64,000 bases of DNA, taken from Mesoflavibacter profundi (lineage in GTDB: Bacteria > Bacteroidota > Bacteroidia > Flavobacteriales > Flavobacteriaceae). Shown here in pieces: positions 17,841 to 44,317 of the stretch. The stretch covers positions 2,957,501-3,021,500 of the forward strand of contig NZ_CP061703.1 of assembly GCF_014764305.1 (NCBI RefSeq). The letters are read 5' to 3'. Each line of letters begins with the position of its first letter. Position 1 is the stretch's first letter. The translations under genes and the position numbers were made by a program. Under the pieces are notes generated by a model. That model saw only the letters and a list, made by a program, of their open reading frames with translations. It was not told where the DNA came from and ran no database searches.

Positions 17841-18659
17841 ATGTCTACAGCAAAAAAAGAATATAAAAGAATTACAGTAAAAACATTAGTCGATATGAAG
17901 GCTAATAACGAAAAAATTTCTATGCTTACCGCTTACGATTATACTATGGCTACTATCGTAGATGGTGCTGGTGTAGACGTTATTTTAGTTGGTGATTCGG
18001 CAAGTAATGTAATGGCTGGTCACGAAACCACGTTACCAATTACACTTGACCAAATGATTTATCATGCATCTTCAGTAATTCGTGCTGTAAAACGTGCTTT
18101 AGTCGTTGTAGATTTACCCTTCGGAACTTACCAAAGTGACCCGAAAGAAGCCTTAAGATCTGCTATTAGAATCATGAAAGAATCTGGCGGACATGCTGTT
18201 AAACTAGAAGGAGGAAAAGAGGTTAAGGAATCTATCAAACGTATTATAAATGCAGGTATACCTGTAATGGGACATTTAGGTTTAATACCTCAATCTATAT
18301 ATAAATTTGGGACGTATACTGTTAGAGCAAAAGAAGAAGTTGAAGCCGAAAAACTAAAAGAAGATGCTTTAATGTTAGAAAAAGCTGGTTGTTTTGCTAT
18401 TGTTTTAGAAAAAATTCCTGCAAAATTAGCTAAAGAAGTTGCAGAAAGTGTTTCTATTCCTGTTATTGGTATTGGTGCTGGAAATGGCGTTGATGGTCAG
18501 GTATTAGTATTACACGATATGGTTGGTATGACGCATGAGTTTAACCCAAGATTTTTACGTCGCTACATGAATCTTTTTGATGATATGACTAATGCTATAT
18601 CGCAGTATGTTGAAGATGTAAAAACAGTCGACTTTCCTAGTGATAAAGAGCAATATTAA
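17841..18659 (+). CDS. panB: 3-methyl-2-oxobutanoate hydroxymethyltransferase
   Basis: Catalyses transfer of a hydroxymethyl group from methylene-tetrahydrofolate to 2-oxoisovalerate, giving ketopantoate in pantothenate and CoA synthesis. The 272-residue TIM-barrel shows [27 protein letters not shown] (metal-binding aspartate), [10 protein letters not shown] and [25 protein letters not shown] sequence at 17812-17819 may be a one-mismatch -7 box. The pseudouridine synthase gene follows after 12 bases and probably shares its transcript. No panC or panD is nearby. Confidence 0.96.
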
Positions 18660-18671
18660 TCTAACCATCTA

Positions 18672-19376
18672 GTGATCCAAAATTCGAAACATCTATCCAA
18701 TAAAAACAACCTACAAGTCTTACACGAAGACAATCACATTATTGTCGTTAATAAACGTGCTGGAGATATTGTACAAGGAGATAAAACTGGTGATAAACCA
18801 TTAAGCGATGTAGTCAAGTCGTATTTAAAAGATAAATATAACAAACCAGGAAATGTTTATTTAGGAACAGTTCATCGATTAGACAGACCTACTTCTGGTT
18901 TGGTAATTTTTTCTAAAACTAGCAAAGCATTACCAAGACTAAACAAGATGTTTGCGACTAAAGATATTACAAAAACATATTGGGCTTTAGTTAAAAATAA
19001 ACCTAAAAAAGATTCAGATAGACTTGTACATTGGTTAAAAAAGAATTCTAAAAACAATAAATCTTACGCACATCCAACTGAAGTTAAAGACAGTAAAAAA
19101 GCTGTTTTAAGCTATCAAATTATCAAAAAACTAGATAATTTCTATTTGCTAGAAATCACTTTAGAAACTGGTAGACATCATCAAATACGTACCCAATTAT
19201 CTACTATTGGTTGCCCAATAAAAGGCGATTTAAAATATGGTTTTGATAGAAGTAACAAAGACGCTAGTATAAGTCTGCATGCCAGAAATATTAAATTTAT
19301 TCATCCTGTTTCTAAAGAAGAATTAGATATTACAGCGCCATTACCAAAAGATCCTGTTTGGGACGCCTGTATTTAG
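18672..19376 (+). CDS. RluA-family pseudouridine synthase
   Basis: A 234-residue RNA-modifying enzyme consisting of the catalytic domain only, without the N-terminal S4 domain. It contains EDNHIIVVNKRAG, the catalytic-aspartate motif GTVHRLDRPTSGLVIF, and the RluA-type GRHHQIRTQL and CPIKGDLKYG blocks. The start is a GTG. Target uridine (rRNA or tRNA) cannot be told from sequence; the S4-less form resembles RluC/D-like short homologs common in Bacteroidota. It lies 12 bases after panB. Confidence 0.9.
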   Translation: MIQNSKHLSNKNNLQVLHEDNHIIVVNKRAGDIVQGDKTGDKPLSDVVKSYLKDKYNKPGNVYLGTVHRLDRPTSGLVIFSKTSKALPRLNKMFATKDITKTYWALVKNKPKKDSDRLVHWLKKNSKNNKSYAHPTEVKDSKKAVLSYQIIKKLDNFYLLEITLETGRHHQIRTQLSTIGCPIKGDLKYGFDRSNKDASISLHARNIKFIHPVSKEELDITAPLPKDPVWDACI

Positions 19377-19413
19377 TTTAATAATTCTTATTTTTATTAA
19401 AAAGAAATAAGGC

Positions 19414-20784
19414 ATGATTGAAGCTATTGTAAACTCTCAAAAAGAATTTTTTAAAACCGGAAAAACTAAAACTATTGCCTACAGAAAGCAATTGCTAAAA
19501 CAACTTCAATCAGAATTAATTAAACAAGAAGATCATATTGTTAAAGCGCTTTATGACGATTTTAAAAAACCAGAATTTGAATCTATTATAACAGAAACTG
19601 CTATAGTCTTACAAGATTTAAAACGCACCTTAAAACACATTGATAAATGGGCAAAACCAAAACGTGTTTTTCCTAGTTTATTAAATTTTCCTTCATCAGA
19701 TTTTATTTATAAAGAACCTTACGGAACGGTGTTAATTATCGCTCCTTGGAATTATCCGTATCAACTTGCATTAGCTCCGCTAATTGGAGCTGTAGCAGCA
19801 GGAAACACCGTTGTACTAAAACCGAGTGAACTTACACCAAATACGTCTACTCTACTTTCAAAAATTATAAAACATGTTTTTCCTCCAGAATTTGTAACGG
19901 TAATTGAAGGTGGCGTAGACACTTCAACACAACTTTTAAATCAAGTTTGGGATTATATTTTCTTTACAGGCAGCGTTGGTGTTGGTAAAATTGTTGCCAA
20001 AGCTGCTGCACCTAATTTAACGCCTATTACATTAGAATTAGGAGGTAAAAATCCTTGTATTATCGATAAAAGTGCTAATTTAAAATTAGCTGCAAAACGA
20101 ATAGTTTGGGGAAAATTTGTTAATGCAGGACAGACGTGTATTGCTCCAGATTACATTTTAATAGACCAAAGCATTAAAAATGATTTTTATAATTTTTTAA
20201 AAGAAGAAATTACTAATGCATTTACTAATAAACCTAAAACATCAAAAGATTTTGCTAGAATAATAAACGAAAAAAACTTTAATCGTTTAACCGAAATGTT
20301 AGTAGACCAAAATTGCATAATTGGTGGAAATCATGACCTAACGGACTATTATATTTCTCCAACGGTTATTGATCAACCAAGTTTAGATAGCAAAGTGATG
20401 GAAGATGAAATTTTTGGTCCTATTTTACCTGTATTGGCTTATGACAACATTAACACGATAGATACAATAATTAACACATATCCTAAGCCATTAAGTTTGT
20501 ATGTGTTTAGTACAAATTCCGCGCAAGCAAAACAATTAATCAAACAATATTCTTTTGGTGGCGGATGTATTAATGATACAATTATACATTTTGCAAATCA
20601 CAGATTACCTTTTGGTGGTGTTGGCAATAGTGGTATTGGAGCCTACCATGGTAAACACACTTTTAATACATTTAGTCACATTAAACCTGTAGTAAAAAAA
20701 GGAAATTGGTTAGATATTACCTTACGTTATGCGCCTTATAAAGGAAAATTAAAATCTTTAAAACAATTATTGAATTGGTTGTAA
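19414..20784 (+). CDS. Aldehyde dehydrogenase, class 3-like (NAD(P)+)
   Basis: A 456-residue aldehyde dehydrogenase, the short length and sequence style of the ALDH3/fatty- or coniferyl-aldehyde group. Key elements are IAPWNYPYQLALAPL, KPSELTPNTS, FTGSVGVGKIV, the general base in TLELGGKNPCI, and the catalytic cysteine in NAGQTCIAPDY; PFGGVGNSGIGAYHGK and the hydrophobic C terminus also match. It would oxidise medium- or long-chain aldehydes to acids. It faces the histidine-kinase gene tail to tail with one base between stop codons. Confidence 0.93.
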   Translation: MIEAIVNSQKEFFKTGKTKTIAYRKQLLKQLQSELIKQEDHIVKALYDDFKKPEFESIITETAIVLQDLKRTLKHIDKWAKPKRVFPSLLNFPSSDFIYKEPYGTVLIIAPWNYPYQLALAPLIGAVAAGNTVVLKPSELTPNTSTLLSKIIKHVFPPEFVTVIEGGVDTSTQLLNQVWDYIFFTGSVGVGKIVAKAAAPNLTPITLELGGKNPCIIDKSANLKLAAKRIVWGKFVNAGQTCIAPDYILIDQSIKNDFYNFLKEEITNAFTNKPKTSKDFARIINEKNFNRLTEMLVDQNCIIGGNHDLTDYYISPTVIDQPSLDSKVMEDEIFGPILPVLAYDNINTIDTIINTYPKPLSLYVFSTNSAQAKQLIKQYSFGGGCINDTIIHFANHRLPFGGVGNSGIGAYHGKHTFNTFSHIKPVVKKGNWLDITLRYAPYKGKLKSLKQLLNWL

Positions 20785-20785
20785 A

Positions 20786-21604
20786 CTAATCGTTGAAGTA
20801 ATAAATCATTTTTAAAGTTACACCATTACCTGGTTGAGATAAAAGCTCGTAATCCATTTTAATTAATTCGGCTCTACTTTGCATATTTAATAATCCTGCA
20901 CCTTTATTTATGGTAGACATATCAAATCCTTTACCGTCATCTTTAGCTGTGATTAGCAGTTGATCGTTTTGATAATCTAAAATAACGCTTAGATTTTTAG
21001 CTTCAGAATATTTAACTGTATTGGAAAAAAACTCTTGAAGAATTCTAAAAATTATAATCTCGTGTTTTTTGTTTTTAAAAGGCTTAACTTCACCTTTTAC
21101 GTTTAATTCAGCTGAAGCAAATTTCATTTTTTTCAATCTATTCAATTCGTTTGTGATAGATTGTTCAAAACCAATATTTAAAACTACCTCGTTATTTAAC
21201 GATCTAGAAAGCATTCTTACTTCTTTAAGACTTTCTTTTACTGTATTAGACGCGTCTTTAAAACTATCTAAAGCTTCTCCATCTAATTTAGTTTTTAATA
21301 TATTTAATTGCATGCTTGCTGCTGCTAGCAATTGCCCAACGTTATCGTGTAATTCCCAACCAATATTTTTTAAGGTTTGTTCTTGGATTTCGGTTTGAGC
21401 ATTAGATAATTCTTTTTCAAAAGCTTGTTGTTGCTTTATCTTATCTATTAATAGTTTGTTTTTTCGTTTTTGAAAAACAATAAAAAATAAAATTACTAAA
21501 GAGGTAATTACTATTAATACACCTATCATATAGATTAGCAAATAACGCTCTGAAGCTGTAGAAGTAACTGGTTGTTGAGTTAAAAGAAGAAAAATATTAT
21601 CCAT
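20786..21604 (-). CDS. Sensor-less histidine kinase of the HisKA_3 (NarL-partner) type
   Basis: A 272-residue kinase. A single membrane helix at about residues 21-45 is preceded by about 20 residues, so there is no extracellular sensor domain. A coiled coil follows (about 48-80), then the HisKA_3 dimerisation helix with NIGWELHDNVGQLLAAA (phospho-histidine in ELHDN) and a HATPase domain with N box QEFFSNTVKYSEA, G1 box KDDGKGFD and G2 GAGLLNMQSRAEL. All catalytic boxes are intact, so it should be active. Its start overlaps the end of a seven-helix membrane protein gene by 8 bases and it is last in a seven-gene run; those membrane proteins are the likely input. No response regulator is adjacent. 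Confidence 0.88.
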   Translation of the reverse strand: MDNIFLLLTQQPVTSTASERYLLIYMIGVLIVITSLVILFFIVFQKRKNKLLIDKIKQQQAFEKELSNAQTEIQEQTLKNIGWELHDNVGQLLAAASMQLNILKTKLDGEALDSFKDASNTVKESLKEVRMLSRSLNNEVVLNIGFEQSITNELNRLKKMKFASAELNVKGEVKPFKNKKHEIIIFRILQEFFSNTVKYSEAKNLSVILDYQNDQLLITAKDDGKGFDMSTINKGAGLLNMQSRAELIKMDYELLSQPGNGVTLKMIYYFND

Positions 21605-22304
21605 TTTTTGGTTGTGGTTTAGATAAAATTAGACCAATAGCAAAGCAAGTATACATAAAAATATTAGCGAATAAAAATACACGTCGTTTTAAATTAACAA
21701 AATCCCAATCAGATTCGTTATTATATATTTCATAAAAAAATAAAGGAGATGTTACTAACCACCATAAAAATAAGGCTATAGAAGCATAAAAAGGAAAATG
21801 ATCTGTAAGTTTTATTAAATTATCTAATTGCAATAATTCTAAAAAGTACAATACGCATGATGTAAAAATAACTACAGCTCCAAAAAATATATATAAATAA
21901 GGATGTGCTGTATTTAAATCTGATAAATTAAAAAGTAAATAACTTATTGAGGTTATAGTAAAACTAATACTTAACCAAGTTAAAATTAATTTAAACAGTC
22001 TTACTTGTAGGATGTTTAAATAATAAATACTTATAAAAATAACACTTCCAATCAACCAAAAAATATTAAACCATCCTATGACTTTAATACCTGTTTTTAA
22101 TAAAAATTCTATTAAAATATTTGATTTAAAATAAGTAATTGCTGCTGCACCAAGCTCTACAAAGCCTACATAAAACAAGTAATATATAAATAACTTTGTT
22201 TTTGTGTTTTTAAATTTTTTAAAGGTAAATATAGCCGTTAGTATGGCTAAAACTTCAAAAAAATAAACAACAAAATTAAAATGAGTAGTTAAATACTTTA
22301 GCAT
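21597..22304 (-). CDS. Seven-helix membrane protein of a four-member tandem family (copy 4)
   Basis: A 235-residue integral membrane protein with seven hydrophobic helices and almost no soluble domains. The basic loop after helix 1 (FKKFKNTKTK) suggests the N terminus is outside and the C terminus inside. Family signatures are GFVELGAAAITYF in helix 2, YFLELLQLDNLIKL at helix 5, LWWLVTSPLFFYEIY in helix 6 and FAIGLILSKP at the C terminus. It is the most divergent of the four, lacking the N-x-WW motif in full (IGWFNIFW). Translational coupling (8-base overlap) to the histidine kinase makes it the prime candidate sensor subunit. No named family recognised. Confidence 0.75.
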   Translation of the reverse strand: MLKYLTTHFNFVVYFFEVLAILTAIFTFKKFKNTKTKLFIYYLFYVGFVELGAAAITYFKSNILIEFLLKTGIKVIGWFNIFWLIGSVIFISIYYLNILQVRLFKLILTWLSISFTITSISYLLFNLSDLNTAHPYLYIFFGAVVIFTSCVLYFLELLQLDNLIKLTDHFPFYASIALFLWWLVTSPLFFYEIYNNESDWDFVNLKRRVFLFANIFMYTCFAIGLILSKPQPKNG

Positions 22305-22320
22305 AGTATTAAATTACTTA

Positions 22321-23022
22321 TTAAGTTTTTGGTCTAGCTATTATTAGACCAATTGCAAATGTAGAATACATTAAAAAATTGGCTATTAAATAAATTTGCC
22401 ATTTAAGTAAAATAAAATTCCAATCTCCATTTTTAGAATAAATATCATAAAATGAAACAGGAGTTACAATTATCAACCACATAAATAAAGCAACAGCTAC
22501 GTAAAAATATAAATCTTTATAAAAGGTGAGGATTTTATCACTTAAAATCAATTCAATAAAATAACTAATTGTGCTTACAATGATTAATAGACTTCCCACT
22601 ATTTGAATGAATGGAAAGACTTGAAAAAAAATTTTTTCATAATTAATAAACAAAAATATAGTTGAGAACACTATAAATATAACAGAAGAAATATTTACTA
22701 TCCTATTAAGGAATCTAATTTTTAATACTTTTAAAAATAATCTAGAGAATAGAAAAACAATTATTACATCAAAAAAAATGGTAAACCACCAATAATTTTG
22801 TCTAAATACAGAGTTATACAAAGGATTTAAAAACTCTAATTTACTATAGTAATTAGGATAACTTCCTATAAGCTCTACAAAAAAAATAAAAAATAAAATA
22901 TGAATAAAAGCTATAGCTGTAGTAGGTTGATATTTTTTATATAAAATTATACCAACTAAAACAGCTATAAACTCTATAACATATGTTATTAAAACATTGT
23001 TATTTATAATAAAATCCTTCAA
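22321..23022 (-). CDS. Seven-helix membrane protein of a four-member tandem family (copy 3)
   Basis: A 233-residue seven-helix protein, clearly homologous to its three neighbours: FFVELIGSYPNYY at helix 2, QNYWWFTIFFD leading into helix 3, SYFIELILSDKIL at helix 5, LTFYKDLYFYVA entering helix 6, IIVTPVSFYDIY and a C-terminal FAIGLIIARPKT. It lies 5 bases after the membrane-anchored small-protein gene and 16 bases before copy 4. The two outer-loop aromatic residues before helix 3 are shared with copies 1 and 2. Too few conserved charged residues within the helices to suggest a transporter; a receptor-like role is inferred only from the adjacent kinase. Confidence 0.75.
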   Translation of the reverse strand: MKDFIINNNVLITYVIEFIAVLVGIILYKKYQPTTAIAFIHILFFIFFVELIGSYPNYYSKLEFLNPLYNSVFRQNYWWFTIFFDVIIVFLFSRLFLKVLKIRFLNRIVNISSVIFIVFSTIFLFINYEKIFFQVFPFIQIVGSLLIIVSTISYFIELILSDKILTFYKDLYFYVAVALFMWLIIVTPVSFYDIYSKNGDWNFILLKWQIYLIANFLMYSTFAIGLIIARPKT

Positions 23023-23027
23023 AGCTT

Positions 23028-23486
23028 TTAATTAGGATAAGGTTGTCCTGGTGGAATACCATTAGTACCTTTATCTAAACCATTTGCTGTAGAGATATCT
23101 TTTTGGGTACCAGATCGTTTATCATTTTCGGTAGGTACTAAAAAAATCGTGGTCAATCCTTTTGGTCCTACAGATGTATCTACACCTAAATATAAACGTA
23201 TACCGCTAGCATTTAAAGAGTCTTTTGCATAATTTACATAGTATTCCATATCTTTTATAGAATACCAAGAAGATCTATTATCCTCAGCTTCATAAGCAAC
23301 CGAATCTACATACTGCTGACGAAGATTTGTCCAGTTATCGCTTAGTTTTTTTGCTTCGGTTGGAGTAATAATACCAGAAGGCATTGTTAATGGTGGCGGC
23401 GTTGTCATACCTGTTGGACTAAAAAAATAATAGGTAATAAAAGCACCAATAAGTAAGCCTACAATAAGGCTAAATAAGTTTTTCAT
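23028..23486 (-). CDS. Membrane-anchored small conserved protein (DNRSSWYS family, anchored form)
   Basis: A 152-residue protein with an N-terminal membrane anchor at residues 4-22 (LFSLIVGLLIGAFITYYFF), a Pro/Thr-rich linker and a domain that is a paralog of the 119-residue protein five genes upstream in transcription order. Shared blocks: GIITPTEAKKLSDNW, DNRSSWYSIKDMEYY, GIRLYLGVDTS, PKGLTTIFLVPT, KDISTANGLDKG and PPGQPYP. The lysine at position 2 before the anchor predicts the domain lies outside the cytoplasm. The 61-base gap before it holds TACATTTA, a near -7 box, so this half may have its own promoter. Function unknown. Confidence 0.75.
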   Translation of the reverse strand: MKNLFSLIVGLLIGAFITYYFFSPTGMTTPPPLTMPSGIITPTEAKKLSDNWTNLRQQYVDSVAYEAEDNRSSWYSIKDMEYYVNYAKDSLNASGIRLYLGVDTSVGPKGLTTIFLVPTENDKRSGTQKDISTANGLDKGTNGIPPGQPYPN

Positions 23487-23547
23487 GTTGGTTAAGTATT
23501 TAAAGATTAATAGCTTATTCTTGAAGATAAATGTAAGAAAAAATCTT

Positions 23548-24270
23548 TTAATTTCTCAATTTAGGTTTAGAGACTATAAATCCTATACCTATAAAAACAT
23601 ACATAAATATAATTGCAAAAAATTTGATGGAATACTTAAGGCTTATGTATTCTGGATCTGAAAGCGTAAAATAACGTTCAAAAAAAGTTAATGGAGTTGT
23701 AACTATAAAAAAGACTAATGTCCCAATACTAACATAAAAAGGTAATAACTTATAAAAGCTTATTATATTTTCTAAATTTAACAACTGAATAAAATAACTA
23801 GAGATTAGAAAAACAATAACAAATAAGTCAATAACTTCTGCATAAATCATGTAGTCATAATTAGAAGACGACATAAATAAAACGAAAAATATAAACTGAA
23901 AAATTAGTGTTAAAAACAAAATCAATTTAATAGCTTTTTTAATACTTGTATTCTCTGCGATTAAATAATAATAACAACTAAAGAATACATTTGCTCCTAT
24001 AAACCACGTTAAAAAATACCACCAATAATTTTTTTCGAAAACCGTATTTTTTAAAGTTTCTTTTAAAGATGAAAATGATGGATTTGCATCTATTATTACA
24101 GTGTAAGAGGCTAATATTTCAATACAATTAATGTAGATTAAAAAGTAAATAAGATATTTAGAAGCTTTATCATTTTTAAATTTCTTAAAACATAAAATTC
24201 CTGCTAGAGCTGCAAAAACTTCAGCAGATCTAAAGCATAAAAAATAATATTCTTCAATTAATGAAATCAC
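23548..24270 (-). CDS. Seven-helix membrane protein of a four-member tandem family (copy 2)
   Basis: A 240-residue seven-helix protein. Signatures: INCIEILASYTVI at helix 2, NTVFEKNYWWYFLTWFIG in the outer loop and helix 3, SYFIQLLNLENII at helix 5, ISFYKLLPFYVS, VTTPLTFFERY in helix 6 and IGIGFIVSKPKLRN at the C terminus. It is closest to copy 1, sharing the NTVF-x-x-N-x-WWY-x-LTW stretch. It starts 2 bases after copy 1, so the two are probably made in equal amounts and may pair. No rhodopsin-type retinal lysine or transporter motif is present. Confidence 0.75.
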   Translation of the reverse strand: MISLIEEYYFLCFRSAEVFAALAGILCFKKFKNDKASKYLIYFLIYINCIEILASYTVIIDANPSFSSLKETLKNTVFEKNYWWYFLTWFIGANVFFSCYYYLIAENTSIKKAIKLILFLTLIFQFIFFVLFMSSSNYDYMIYAEVIDLFVIVFLISSYFIQLLNLENIISFYKLLPFYVSIGTLVFFIVTTPLTFFERYFTLSDPEYISLKYSIKFFAIIFMYVFIGIGFIVSKPKLRN

Positions 24271-24272
24271 AT

Positions 24273-25004
24273 TTACTTTTCAATTTCTGGTTTAGAAACA
24301 ATTAAACCAATTGTATACATTAAATACATAAACATAATTGAAAATAATCGTACAATTCTATTTAAAATAACAAAATTGTCATCTTTTGAATTATAATAGT
24401 TTTGATAAAAATCAAGTGGCGTTTGTATTATTATAAAGACAAATGCTGCAGTTGCAATATAAAAAGATAATGATCTGTAAAACGTAGTAATAGCATCACT
24501 ATTTATTAATTCTATAAAATAGACAGATGTTACAAACATGATAAGAGTAAGCTGTATTAAGTTAATTTCTGTAATACTATCACTCATAAAAGTATTAAAC
24601 TTAAAAATGTATAATACTATCTGTATTAAAATCAACACACTTGTAACACGTTTAACTATTAGTTTTAAACGTTTAGATTTAAGCACTTTAGAAAAGTATA
24701 TCGAATAAAACAAGGAAGAACCAATAGTCCATGTCAAGGAGTACCACCAAAAATTATTATAAAAAACTGTATTATTTAATAAATCTTTAATCCAAAATAA
24801 ATCTTCATTTTTTTTAATTAATCTTGGATAAGAACCAATCGTTTCAATAAGATTAACATAAATTAAAAAAAATATAAAAAGCTTAGCAGCTAGATCCTGT
24901 TTATATTTTCTTAATAAAAATATTCCAGTTAAAGCTGCTAAAATTTCTACACTTTTATAAAGTATAGCATAATTTGATTTAATGAAATATGCTAAAAACT
25001 CCAT
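24273..25004 (-). CDS. Seven-helix membrane protein of a four-member tandem family (copy 1)
   Basis: A 243-residue seven-helix protein. Helices lie at about residues 14-32, 39-58, 84-106, 118-136, 145-167, 175-196 and 214-236, with a positively charged first inner loop (LRKYKQDLAAK). Signatures: VNLIETIGSYPRL, NTVFYNNFWWYSLTWTIG, SVYFIELINSDAIT, IIQTPLDFYQNYY and YTIGLIVSKPE. It lies between the cytoplasmic small protein (3-base gap) and copy 2 (2-base gap). Not matched to a family I can name; the even helix spacing and short loops resemble receptor or rhodopsin-sized proteins more than transporters. Confidence 0.75.
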   Translation of the reverse strand: MEFLAYFIKSNYAILYKSVEILAALTGIFLLRKYKQDLAAKLFIFFLIYVNLIETIGSYPRLIKKNEDLFWIKDLLNNTVFYNNFWWYSLTWTIGSSLFYSIYFSKVLKSKRLKLIVKRVTSVLILIQIVLYIFKFNTFMSDSITEINLIQLTLIMFVTSVYFIELINSDAITTFYRSLSFYIATAAFVFIIIQTPLDFYQNYYNSKDDNFVILNRIVRLFSIMFMYLMYTIGLIVSKPEIEK

Positions 25005-25007
25005 TGA

Positions 25008-25367
25008 TTATTGTGGATAATTTGCTTGTGGTGGATCACCTAGATCACCTCTATCCATTCCATCTGCTCCGGTAATATCTTTATTAGATCCATTATCATC
25101 TTGTGTTGGAACCATAAAGATAGTAGTCATTCCCTTAGGATTTTCTTTAGATGTTTCTACGCCTAAGTAAAAACGTACACCGTTAACTTTAGGATTATTT
25201 TCTTGAATATAATCTAAAAAATCTTTCATATCCTGTAAAGAATACCACGAAGATCTGTTATCCGGTTGTCCTGCAGCAGCTTCGTTAGCTTTTGCTCTTA
25301 AAGTTGTCCAGTTGTCGTTTAAAGTTTGTGCCTGTTGAGCAGTAATAATTCCCTTTGGTGTTGCCAT
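25008..25367 (-). CDS. Small conserved protein (DNRSSWYS family, cytoplasmic form), first gene of the 7TM-kinase cassette
   Basis: A 119-residue protein with no signal peptide or membrane segment, starting MATPKGIITAQQAQTLNDNW. It is a paralog of the anchored 152-residue protein in the same run; conserved blocks are DNRSSWYSLQDMKDFLDYI, GVRFYLGVETS, NPKGMTTIFMVPT, KDITGADGMDRG and PPQANYP. The conserved WYS, YLG and TTIF segments look like a compact alpha/beta domain. It is first in the seven-gene unit and has an exact -7 box 30 bases upstream. Function unknown; a cytoplasmic adaptor or ligand-binding role is a guess from context. Confidence 0.75.
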   Translation of the reverse strand: MATPKGIITAQQAQTLNDNWTTLRAKANEAAAGQPDNRSSWYSLQDMKDFLDYIQENNPKVNGVRFYLGVETSKENPKGMTTIFMVPTQDDNGSNKDITGADGMDRGDLGDPPQANYPQ

Positions 25368-25396
25368 AAAATATTTAGATTGATTAATAATTGGAT

Positions 25397-25404
25397 CAAA
25401 AATA
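25397..25404 (-). promoter_or_regulatory. Predicted -7 promoter box of the 7TM-histidine kinase cassette
   Basis: Reads TATTTTTG on the minus strand, an exact TAnnTTTG match 30 bases before the first gene of the cassette, in the 61-base gap after comM. No upstream TTG at the usual distance. Confidence 0.5.
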
Positions 25405-43546: not shown

Positions 43547-44317
43547 TTAAATAAATAAATTATTTGCTTTTAATAAACCTTTTAATTCGCCAGTAGATGT
43601 AATTTTTAATTTTTTTAAAATGTTTCGTCTGTGTGTATCAACAGTATGCGAACTTATATTTAATTTTTCTGAAATCTCTTTGCTAGAATGATCCAATAAT
43701 AACAACCTAATTACATCTCTTTCTCTATTTGAAATGCCATCTTTTAATAGCTTAGTAGAAAAGTTATTATAATAAATGGTTTCATACTCGTTATTCTTAT
43801 TTAAAAGCTTTGCTGTAGCAGTAATTTGCATTTTTATTTTTGGATCTAAAACGGTGTAATGTGCTAATCCTATAATAGGCTTCATATCTGAATCAAACGC
43901 TAATGGTGTCGTGTTTTGAATGATATTTACATAGTTGTCTTTTGCATTTTTTATTCGATAATTCCATGTGTAATTTGCTTTAGGTCTATCGTCTTCCGGG
44001 ATTTCATTCATTGTAAATTCCATAAGATTTGTCATAGCAGTTAACCAGACTTCAATGTCTTCAGGATGCATTCTACTCCAAAAATACCGCATACCTTTTG
44101 CTGATAGATCTTTAGCGTCTAATCCTAAACACGATTTAAAATTTTTGCTAACATATTCAAAAGTCAAGTCTTGCGTATTTGTGACGCAAAAAAAAGTAGA
44201 ACTGTACGGTAAAAACGTATCCAATTCTATAATTTTTTTTATGTGAGTCTCTAAAGACGGTTTTGAATAAGAGTTGAAAATTGAATGATACAATTCTTTA
44301 ATAGCAGAATACTTCAT
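43547..44317 (-). CDS. PAS-LuxR transcriptional regulator
   Basis: A 256-residue regulator with a PAS-like domain at about 35-160 (FFCVTNTQDLTFEYVSKNFKS, YFWSRMHPEDIEVWL, NYTWNYRIKNAKDNY) and a C-terminal LuxR/NarL-type helix-turn-helix at about 190-256 (LKDGISNRERDVIRLLLLDH, SSKEISEKLNISSHTVDTHR). It lacks a receiver domain, so it is not a classical response regulator; the PAS domain presumably senses a ligand or partner. Similar one-component regulators are common in Flavobacteriaceae. Monocistronic; targets unknown. Confidence 0.88.
   Translation of the reverse strand: MKYSAIKELYHSIFNSYSKPSLETHIKKIIELDTFLPYSSTFFCVTNTQDLTFEYVSKNFKSCLGLDAKDLSAKGMRYFWSRMHPEDIEVWLTAMTNLMEFTMNEIPEDDRPKANYTWNYRIKNAKDNYVNIIQNTTPLAFDSDMKPIIGLAHYTVLDPKIKMQITATAKLLNKNNEYETIYYNNFSTKLLKDGISNRERDVIRLLLLDHSSKEISEKLNISSHTVDTHRRNILKKLKITSTGELKGLLKANNLFI

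Follow-up and report, generated by a model that had tools for sequence, protein, structure and literature searches.

The window analysed here is a stretch of 64,000 nucleotides from Mesoflavibacter profundi (assembly GCF_014764305.1, contig NZ_CP061703.1, positions 2,957,501 to 3,021,500 of the forward strand), and this text deals with a cassette of seven genes on its minus strand that ends with a histidine kinase gene. A first-pass annotation had described seven open reading frames (ORFs), and the ORF list confirmed them on the minus strand at 25367-20786 in the order S1-TM1-TM2-S2-TM3-TM4-HK. S1 (25008..25367) is a small protein of 119 amino acids, assigned by the ORF list and the family profile, with neither a signal sequence nor a hydrophobic N-terminus. 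It is followed by two seven-transmembrane (7TM) proteins, TM1 (24273..25004, 243 amino acids), with a predicted fold like that of G protein-coupled receptors (GPCRs) and rhodopsins, and TM2 (23548..24270, 240 amino acids, GTG start). The second small protein, S2 (23028..23486, 152 amino acids), has a membrane anchor at its N-terminus and precedes the 7TM proteins TM3 (22321..23022, 233 amino acids, TTG start) and TM4 (21597..22304, 235 amino acids). The last gene encodes HK (20786..21604, 272 amino acids), a HisKA_3 histidine kinase with one transmembrane helix, no sensor domain and no adjacent response regulator (RR). The gaps between the genes, recomputed from the ORF ends, were 3, 2, 61, 5 and 16 bases, followed by an 8-base overlap of TM4 and HK, as annotated before. 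All seven reading frames are open.

The catalytic boxes of HK had been described as intact, and this was borne out: HisKA_3 and HATPase_c both scored over the Pfam cut-offs, and the H, N, G1 and G2 positions are kept. The lack of a sensor was also found as annotated, and so was the single hydrophobic N-terminal segment, a feature that a crude rule based on hydropathy assigned to 85 of 91 kinases compared. VraS (E 5.8e-11) and DesK (E 7.7e-10) are among the kinases of solved structure that come closest in sequence. The genome encodes three HisKA_3 kinases in total; the two others adjoin a receiver protein, in one case (L099) with one 84-amino-acid ORF in between.

Of 299 genomes from the taxonomic family of the window, 129 had members of the 7TM family, with 1 to 5 matches each in a search with TM4 only. 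Phylum-wide profile searches of 345 genomes detected S in 30 and 7TM in 25 genomes, all in the class of the window, with the placement of these genomes taken from kinship labels. We compared gene order in a nearer set of 54 loci (the window and L034-L086), which were picked by a 7TM match, and in a distant set of 38 loci (L162-L199), picked by an S or 7TM match; L039 and L053 of the nearer set are the same locus, with identical rows, which is shared by genome G163 and Algibacter luteus. An S gene lay directly before a 7TM gene on the same strand in 51/54 nearer and 33/38 distant loci, and 7TM preceded HK in 53/54 and 34/38. HK was followed by an RR in 11/54 nearer and 33/38 distant loci, the latter number including L178 and L181, where the RR comes after a second kinase. 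The junction of 7TM and HK was overlapping or at most 20 bases long in 50/54 nearer and 31/35 distant cases, with a median overlap of 25 and 28 bases, respectively, based on longest-start gene calls. Deviations from the order in the nearer set were found at contig ends (L038, L066, L043) and at L055 with its gap of 516 bases. Order was conserved and copy number varied, in the form S-7TM(1-5)-HK, often with a NarL-type RR (domains checked for one linked RR, L083). We conclude that S-7TM-HK, often together with an RR, is a recurrent operon across the class of the window and not a private cassette.

Nine RRs outside the earlier loci matched the linked RR at 205-242 bits, and seven of their loci were fetched (G101 and G063 were left out). 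These loci were chosen by RR resemblance alone and not by S or 7TM. All seven contained S-7TM-HK-RR in this order, with S scores of 29 to 102 bits, and the linked RR type therefore predicts the remaining parts. A published description of the S-7TM-HK operon was not found in literature searches that were directed at it or at GPCR-like and 7TM kinase systems and that covered little of the subscription literature.

The RR was absent from the window cassette and from most of the nearer loci. In RR-bearing relatives, it is located between the kinase and rluA-panB. Both rluA and panB lay within the fetched stretch for 8/11 loci with RR and 39/43 loci without RR, so that the syntenic site is mostly the same in both groups. 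Since 33/38 distant loci have the RR, its loss is the simpler direction of change. When we searched for the linked RR elsewhere in the window genome, the best match was only 29% identical (83 bits). In 27 of 30 RR-less genomes searched, no RR match exceeded 131 bits; the best matches in 10 RR-bearing genomes were at 222-473 bits, the value of 473 being the query itself. The remaining three RR-less genomes (G175, G173 and G045) possess a separate complete operon, the RR of which could serve both kinases. Judged from these sequences, the RR is gone from the lineage of the window and not merely relocated.

The kinases of RR-less loci have retained the phospho-accepting His, the Asn and Lys of the N-box and the G1/G2 glycines in 43/43 cases, and the Asp of G1 was D in 37 and N in 6 of them. 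The residue following the N-box Lys was Tyr in 42/43 of these kinases and His in 43/48 others (11 kinases of RR-bearing loci and 37 of distant loci). Due to the complete retention of the catalytic residues together with this exchange of His to Tyr, we regard the RR-less kinase as selected yet altered.

Seven LuxR-type helix-turn-helix (HTH) matches were found in the window genome, and three of the proteins showed a receiver together with the HTH (L097, L098 and L099). The regulators at L097 and L098 have no adjoining HisKA_3-class kinase and are candidate new partners of HK by elimination alone. As a diagnostic new partner the L097 regulator was rejected: it is present in 39/40 Flavobacteriaceae genomes searched, with or without linked RR, and is, therefore, uninformative. 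At L097:7271-10954, genes for a CHAT-TPR protein, a small protein that looked retropepsin-like by eye and the LuxR-type regulator stand in a row. Another of the seven matches, a protein of 256 amino acids in the window (43547-44317), has a C-terminal LuxR-type HTH and, as seen by eye, a PAS-like N-terminus without a receiver; it adjoins a regulator that looked Lrp-like by eye.

An AlphaFold2 model of TM1, built with 30 aligned sequences, showed seven long helices of membrane length (predicted local distance difference test, pLDDT, 91.8; predicted template modelling score 0.88). Comparison of this model to the PDB by Foldseek gave no match under E 0.001; GPCRs made up most of the 50 matches listed, with a best E of 0.099 and a query TM-score of at most 0.55. 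The best VIA-align 2 match was GLP-1R (Z 13.2, 4.2 A), aligned to 220 residues and thus to nearly all of the model, but helical bundles can reach such values by their arrangement, and 879 of 1000 chains had a Z of 8 or more. The 50 VIA-align 2 matches listed comprised several classes of GPCRs, a single microbial rhodopsin and LYCHOS, the aligned part of which is GPCR-like. PAQR, SWEET and similar seven-helix folds were absent among the 50 structural matches listed, which excludes none of them.

We calculated the mean numbers of K+R and D+E in the loops of 138 7TM proteins. They were 3.57/0.36 for loop 1, 2.95/0.28 for loop 3, 2.12/2.01 for loop 5 and 2.17/1.14 for the C-terminus, and 2.25/2.79, 0.88/1.30 and 0.82/2.07 for loops 2, 4 and 6, respectively. 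Judged by these charges, the C-terminus lies inside together with loops 1 and 3, loops 2, 4 and 6 lie outside and loop 5 is neutral, which argues for an N-out/C-in orientation. Only few polar positions (N84, Y162, E165, Y227) were conserved in more than 75% of the same 138 proteins. In microbial rhodopsins, retinal is bound by a lysine midway along TM7. No conserved lysine was found there in the 138 proteins: within and just after TM7, lysine exceeded 10% only at positions 215 (31%) and 238-240 (52, 14 and 24%).

None of the S or 7TM proteins of the window passed a Pfam or NCBIfam cut-off, and no Pfam cut-off was passed by any of 13 7TM proteins tabulated singly. In a scan of 30 7TM proteins, which gives E-values without cut-offs, the best Pfam matches were TctB (E 0.0057, 1/30) and CysZ/EI24 (E 0.0064, 2/30), both weak and inconsistent. 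GPCR family models gave no match at E up to 1 for sets of 30 and 9 7TM proteins, although weak matches above approximately 0.1 were possibly filtered, and no sequence relative of 7TM was matched in the PDB. A database match of the 7TM family to a characterised transporter or enzyme would speak against a receptor, and no convincing match of this kind was found. Within the 7TM family, hhalign connected near and far members with a probability of 99.9%, the far members having been found with the near profile. This comparison used 19/20 loci (L203 was left out), with coordinates taken from match lengths. The 7TMR-DISM family was rejected as a relative, with hhalign probabilities of 1.7% and 1.1% to 7TMR-DISM_7TM and a Pfam match in only 1/30 members (E 0.39); a separate comparison drew only on rows open on the given strand.

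The small proteins vary in their N-termini. Among 98 S proteins, 43 had an anchor, 33 no signal and 22 a lipoprotein signal, according to a crude rule that missed some lipoboxes. Supported branches in a tree of 60 S proteins show a minimum of 4 switches of the anchor label, and the clade of 8 that holds S1 and S2 comprises 5 signal-less and 3 anchored proteins. Within the S-tree set, the locus contained an RR for 0/37 anchored and 12/22 signal-less S proteins. S1, which is signal-less, and S2, which is N-terminally anchored, are plausibly on opposite sides of the membrane, as predicted from their N-termini. The S2 model, of lower confidence (pLDDT 78), has three strands and two helices besides that of the anchor, and a structural search with it returned two chains at Z 2.0-2.2. 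Six sequence matches of S in the PDB (E 0.018 to 0.62) were judged to be due to chance.

The paralogy claimed in the first-pass annotation was verified for both protein types. TM2, TM3 and TM4 have 36, 35 and 29% identity to TM1, a search with TM4 retrieved TM1-TM3 at E 1e-28 to 2.8e-23, and S1 and S2 are 49% identical. The whole genome, a single contig of 3.09 Mb, contains four 7TM and two S genes; further copies outside the cassette were searched for across the 3.09 Mb and not found. The description as a duplicated three-gene module turned out to be too simple. In a tree of 96 7TM proteins, TM1 and TM2 group together with first-position proteins (support 98/85), TM4 is one of 6 proteins in a clade (100/100) in which 5 adjoin the kinase, and TM3 pairs with a protein of the same genus elsewhere in the tree (97/94). 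The S tree unites S1 and S2 within the clade of 8 (100/100). These trees contradict one block copy of S-7TM-7TM, and block duplication was ruled out on this basis; the 7TM tree points to gain and loss of copies. The same-genus genome G068 has the order S-7TM-S-7TM-HK (L054), and L064 has one S followed by two 7TM-HK pairs. L048:6792-12219 harbors two S-7TM copies with small and opposite-strand ORFs between them, and behind the first copy there is a fragment of a 7TM gene, with a match of 80 residues that includes one stop. This locus reads as a tandem duplication with decay.

At L167:3736-6484, S-7TM is followed by a His_kinase (PF06580, LytS-type) and a LytTR regulator and not by proteins of the HisKA_3/LuxR type. 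Because of this kinase swap, S-7TM can be viewed as a portable input module and the kinase as output, and L064 also fits this view.

We consider it likely, with a probability of roughly 70%, that the cassette is an expanded, RR-less form of a conserved Bacteroidota S-7TM-HK-RR operon, in which S and 7TM together form a split receptor that sets the state of the kinase, much as in SaePQRS or LiaFSR. The genes are linked and conserved, S and 7TM matched no known family, the RR is absent and the catalytic residues of HK are intact; physical coupling of the parts, their sidedness, the sensing of a ligand and a new output are inferred. The receptor would consist of 7TM in N-out/C-in orientation and of S, as lipoprotein, anchored or signal-less protein depending on the species. 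The sensor-less HisKA_3 kinase with its one-helix anchor would associate with 7TM, which would switch its activity from kinase to phosphatase and back. The extra copies of S and 7TM may provide a wider range of signals or hetero-oligomers. In most distant relatives, the phosphorylation target of HK is presumably the linked NarL-type RR. In the lineage of the window, where this RR is lost, the intact HK probably acts on another regulator.

The first-pass annotation had already suggested a multi-subunit receptor feeding the kinase. Its core, an input complex for the kinase, is supported by the conserved linkage, the tight junctions, the swap at L167 and the lack of a convincing transporter or enzyme match; it had overlooked the RR of the usual system, and its duplicated module did not arise as a single block.

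Several observations weigh against the split receptor. Since the 54 nearer and 38 distant loci were selected by S or 7TM matches, the presence of the selecting part is given by construction. No labelled S precedes 7TM in 5/38 distant loci; in L180 a 247-amino-acid ORF is found at this position, and in L198 no ORF on that strand. The repeated switches of the S signal type are odd for a single extracellular ligand-binding role, and structural searches revealed no recognisable fold of S2. The two other kinases of the same class in the genome are TPR-fused and have no 7TM partners. Parts without the kinase, which had been named as evidence against a common system, do occur: S-7TM lacks an adjacent kinase in 3/38 distant loci (L165, L177, L191). 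At all three (L165:3752-5897, with two 7TM; L177:4910-6346; L191:2954-4447), S-7TM lies directly downstream of a gene that looked rho-like by eye. Small ORFs missed by the S profile stand before divergent 7TM genes at L195:4728-5189, L196:4342-4731 and L197:4450-4839, and by eye their products resemble remote S proteins.

Known systems offer partial parallels. LiaFSR and VraTSR combine a HisKA_3 kinase with little sensor, a LuxR-type RR and an extra membrane protein; this is one membrane partner of another family, which is not known to be expanded or to come with an S protein. The HisKA_3 kinase is shared with the loci studied here, where an RR adjoins it in most distant and few nearer loci and not in the window. 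The LiaF family had no match at E up to 1 among 30 and 9 7TM proteins, as tested with family models and not with LiaF itself. LiaF is reported to inhibit LiaRS without stimulus (PMC7191749). In 7TMR-DISM, LytS/BtsS and HisKA_7TM proteins, a seven-helix membrane part also feeds a kinase, but both are fused in one chain; BtsS is described as a 7TM receptor that binds pyruvate (PMC10653868). The predicted N-out/C-in orientation of the 7TM proteins agrees with that of GPCRs and microbial rhodopsins, and their predicted seven-helix fold may be the same; they differ in having no match to a GPCR family and no conserved lysine midway along TM7 and in being encoded beside a histidine kinase.

The kinase and RR of SaePQRS belong to classes other than the HisKA_3/LuxR type found here. 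In this Staphylococcus aureus system, genes for a small lipoprotein and a multi-helix membrane protein accompany those of the kinase and the RR, and the accessory proteins SaePQ are complexed with the kinase and are required to induce the phosphatase activity of SaeS (PMC5083920). SaeQ has four predicted helices instead of seven, there is one copy of each protein, and the likeness considered here is one of layout. Relatives in which S is a lipoprotein show a layout of the Sae type, and the window lacks both regulator and lipobox. By analogy to SaePQ, S and 7TM may represent a negative accessory unit that sets the phosphatase mode or stabilises the kinase, with the signal entering elsewhere, for example at the single transmembrane helix. 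The placement of lipoprotein and membrane protein genes before regulator and kinase in saePQRS (same source) and the almost complete lack of an extracytoplasmic part in HK would fit. We consider this unlikely, since no other part is as expanded and diversified as 7TM (1-5 matches per genome), and input diversity fits this better than a fixed brake does.

Similarly improbable is that the kinase monitors the work of 7TM proteins that act in transport or as membrane enzymes, with S as a substrate-binding or accessory protein. Transporter-coupled sensing has precedents in BceAB-BceS and UhpC-UhpB, and operon linkage and copy-number expansion would fit this explanation as well. The Pfam matches to the transport families TctB and CysZ/EI24 also point in this direction, but they were weak and inconsistent, with no cut-off passed in the 13 proteins and no sequence match in the PDB. 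The composition of the 50 structural matches listed (GPCRs, one rhodopsin and LYCHOS) and the few conserved polar positions in 7TM speak against it, too. A decaying cassette, with the RR lost, the kinase signalling to nothing and the 7TM copies as relics, would account for the lack of the RR at the locus and in the genome, and two relatives (G125 and G293) do carry fragments of 7TM genes next to intact ones. The seven open frames, the invariant catalytic residues (43/43) and the His to Tyr exchange in the N-box (42/43) argue for continued selection and make decay very improbable.

If the split receptor is true, common Bacteroidota kinases that look sensor-less draw their sensor from neighbouring genes that fall outside the curated families found here. 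The receptor duplications, the kinase swap and the regulator loss would then be a natural set for studying the control of a histidine kinase by a separate membrane receptor. We regard as rather doubtful the more far-reaching view that a large class of GPCR-like receptors has gone unrecognised in Bacteroidota. These would be stand-alone seven-helix proteins and have a true GPCR/rhodopsin-type fold, S co-receptors on either face of the membrane and exchangeable HisKA_3 or LytS output kinases, and would be duplicated into hetero-oligomeric arrays, with one lineage rewired to a new regulator after RR loss. If the fold holds, the system would be a bacterial counterpart of GPCR signalling.

A weak, possible promoter -7 element (TAnnTTTG, 25397..25404, minus strand) is located upstream of S1; TAnnTTTG is the promoter consensus. 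A paired TTG was looked for upstream of S1 and not found, the pattern occurs 54 times on the minus strand of the window, and only 1/11 relatives checked had it ahead of the first S. Downstream of the cassette, genes that we take from their sequences to be panB, rluA and an aldehyde dehydrogenase gene (17841..20784, plus strand) are convergent to HK and mark the syntenic site, and the gene upstream of S1 is, on the same grounds, presumably comM.

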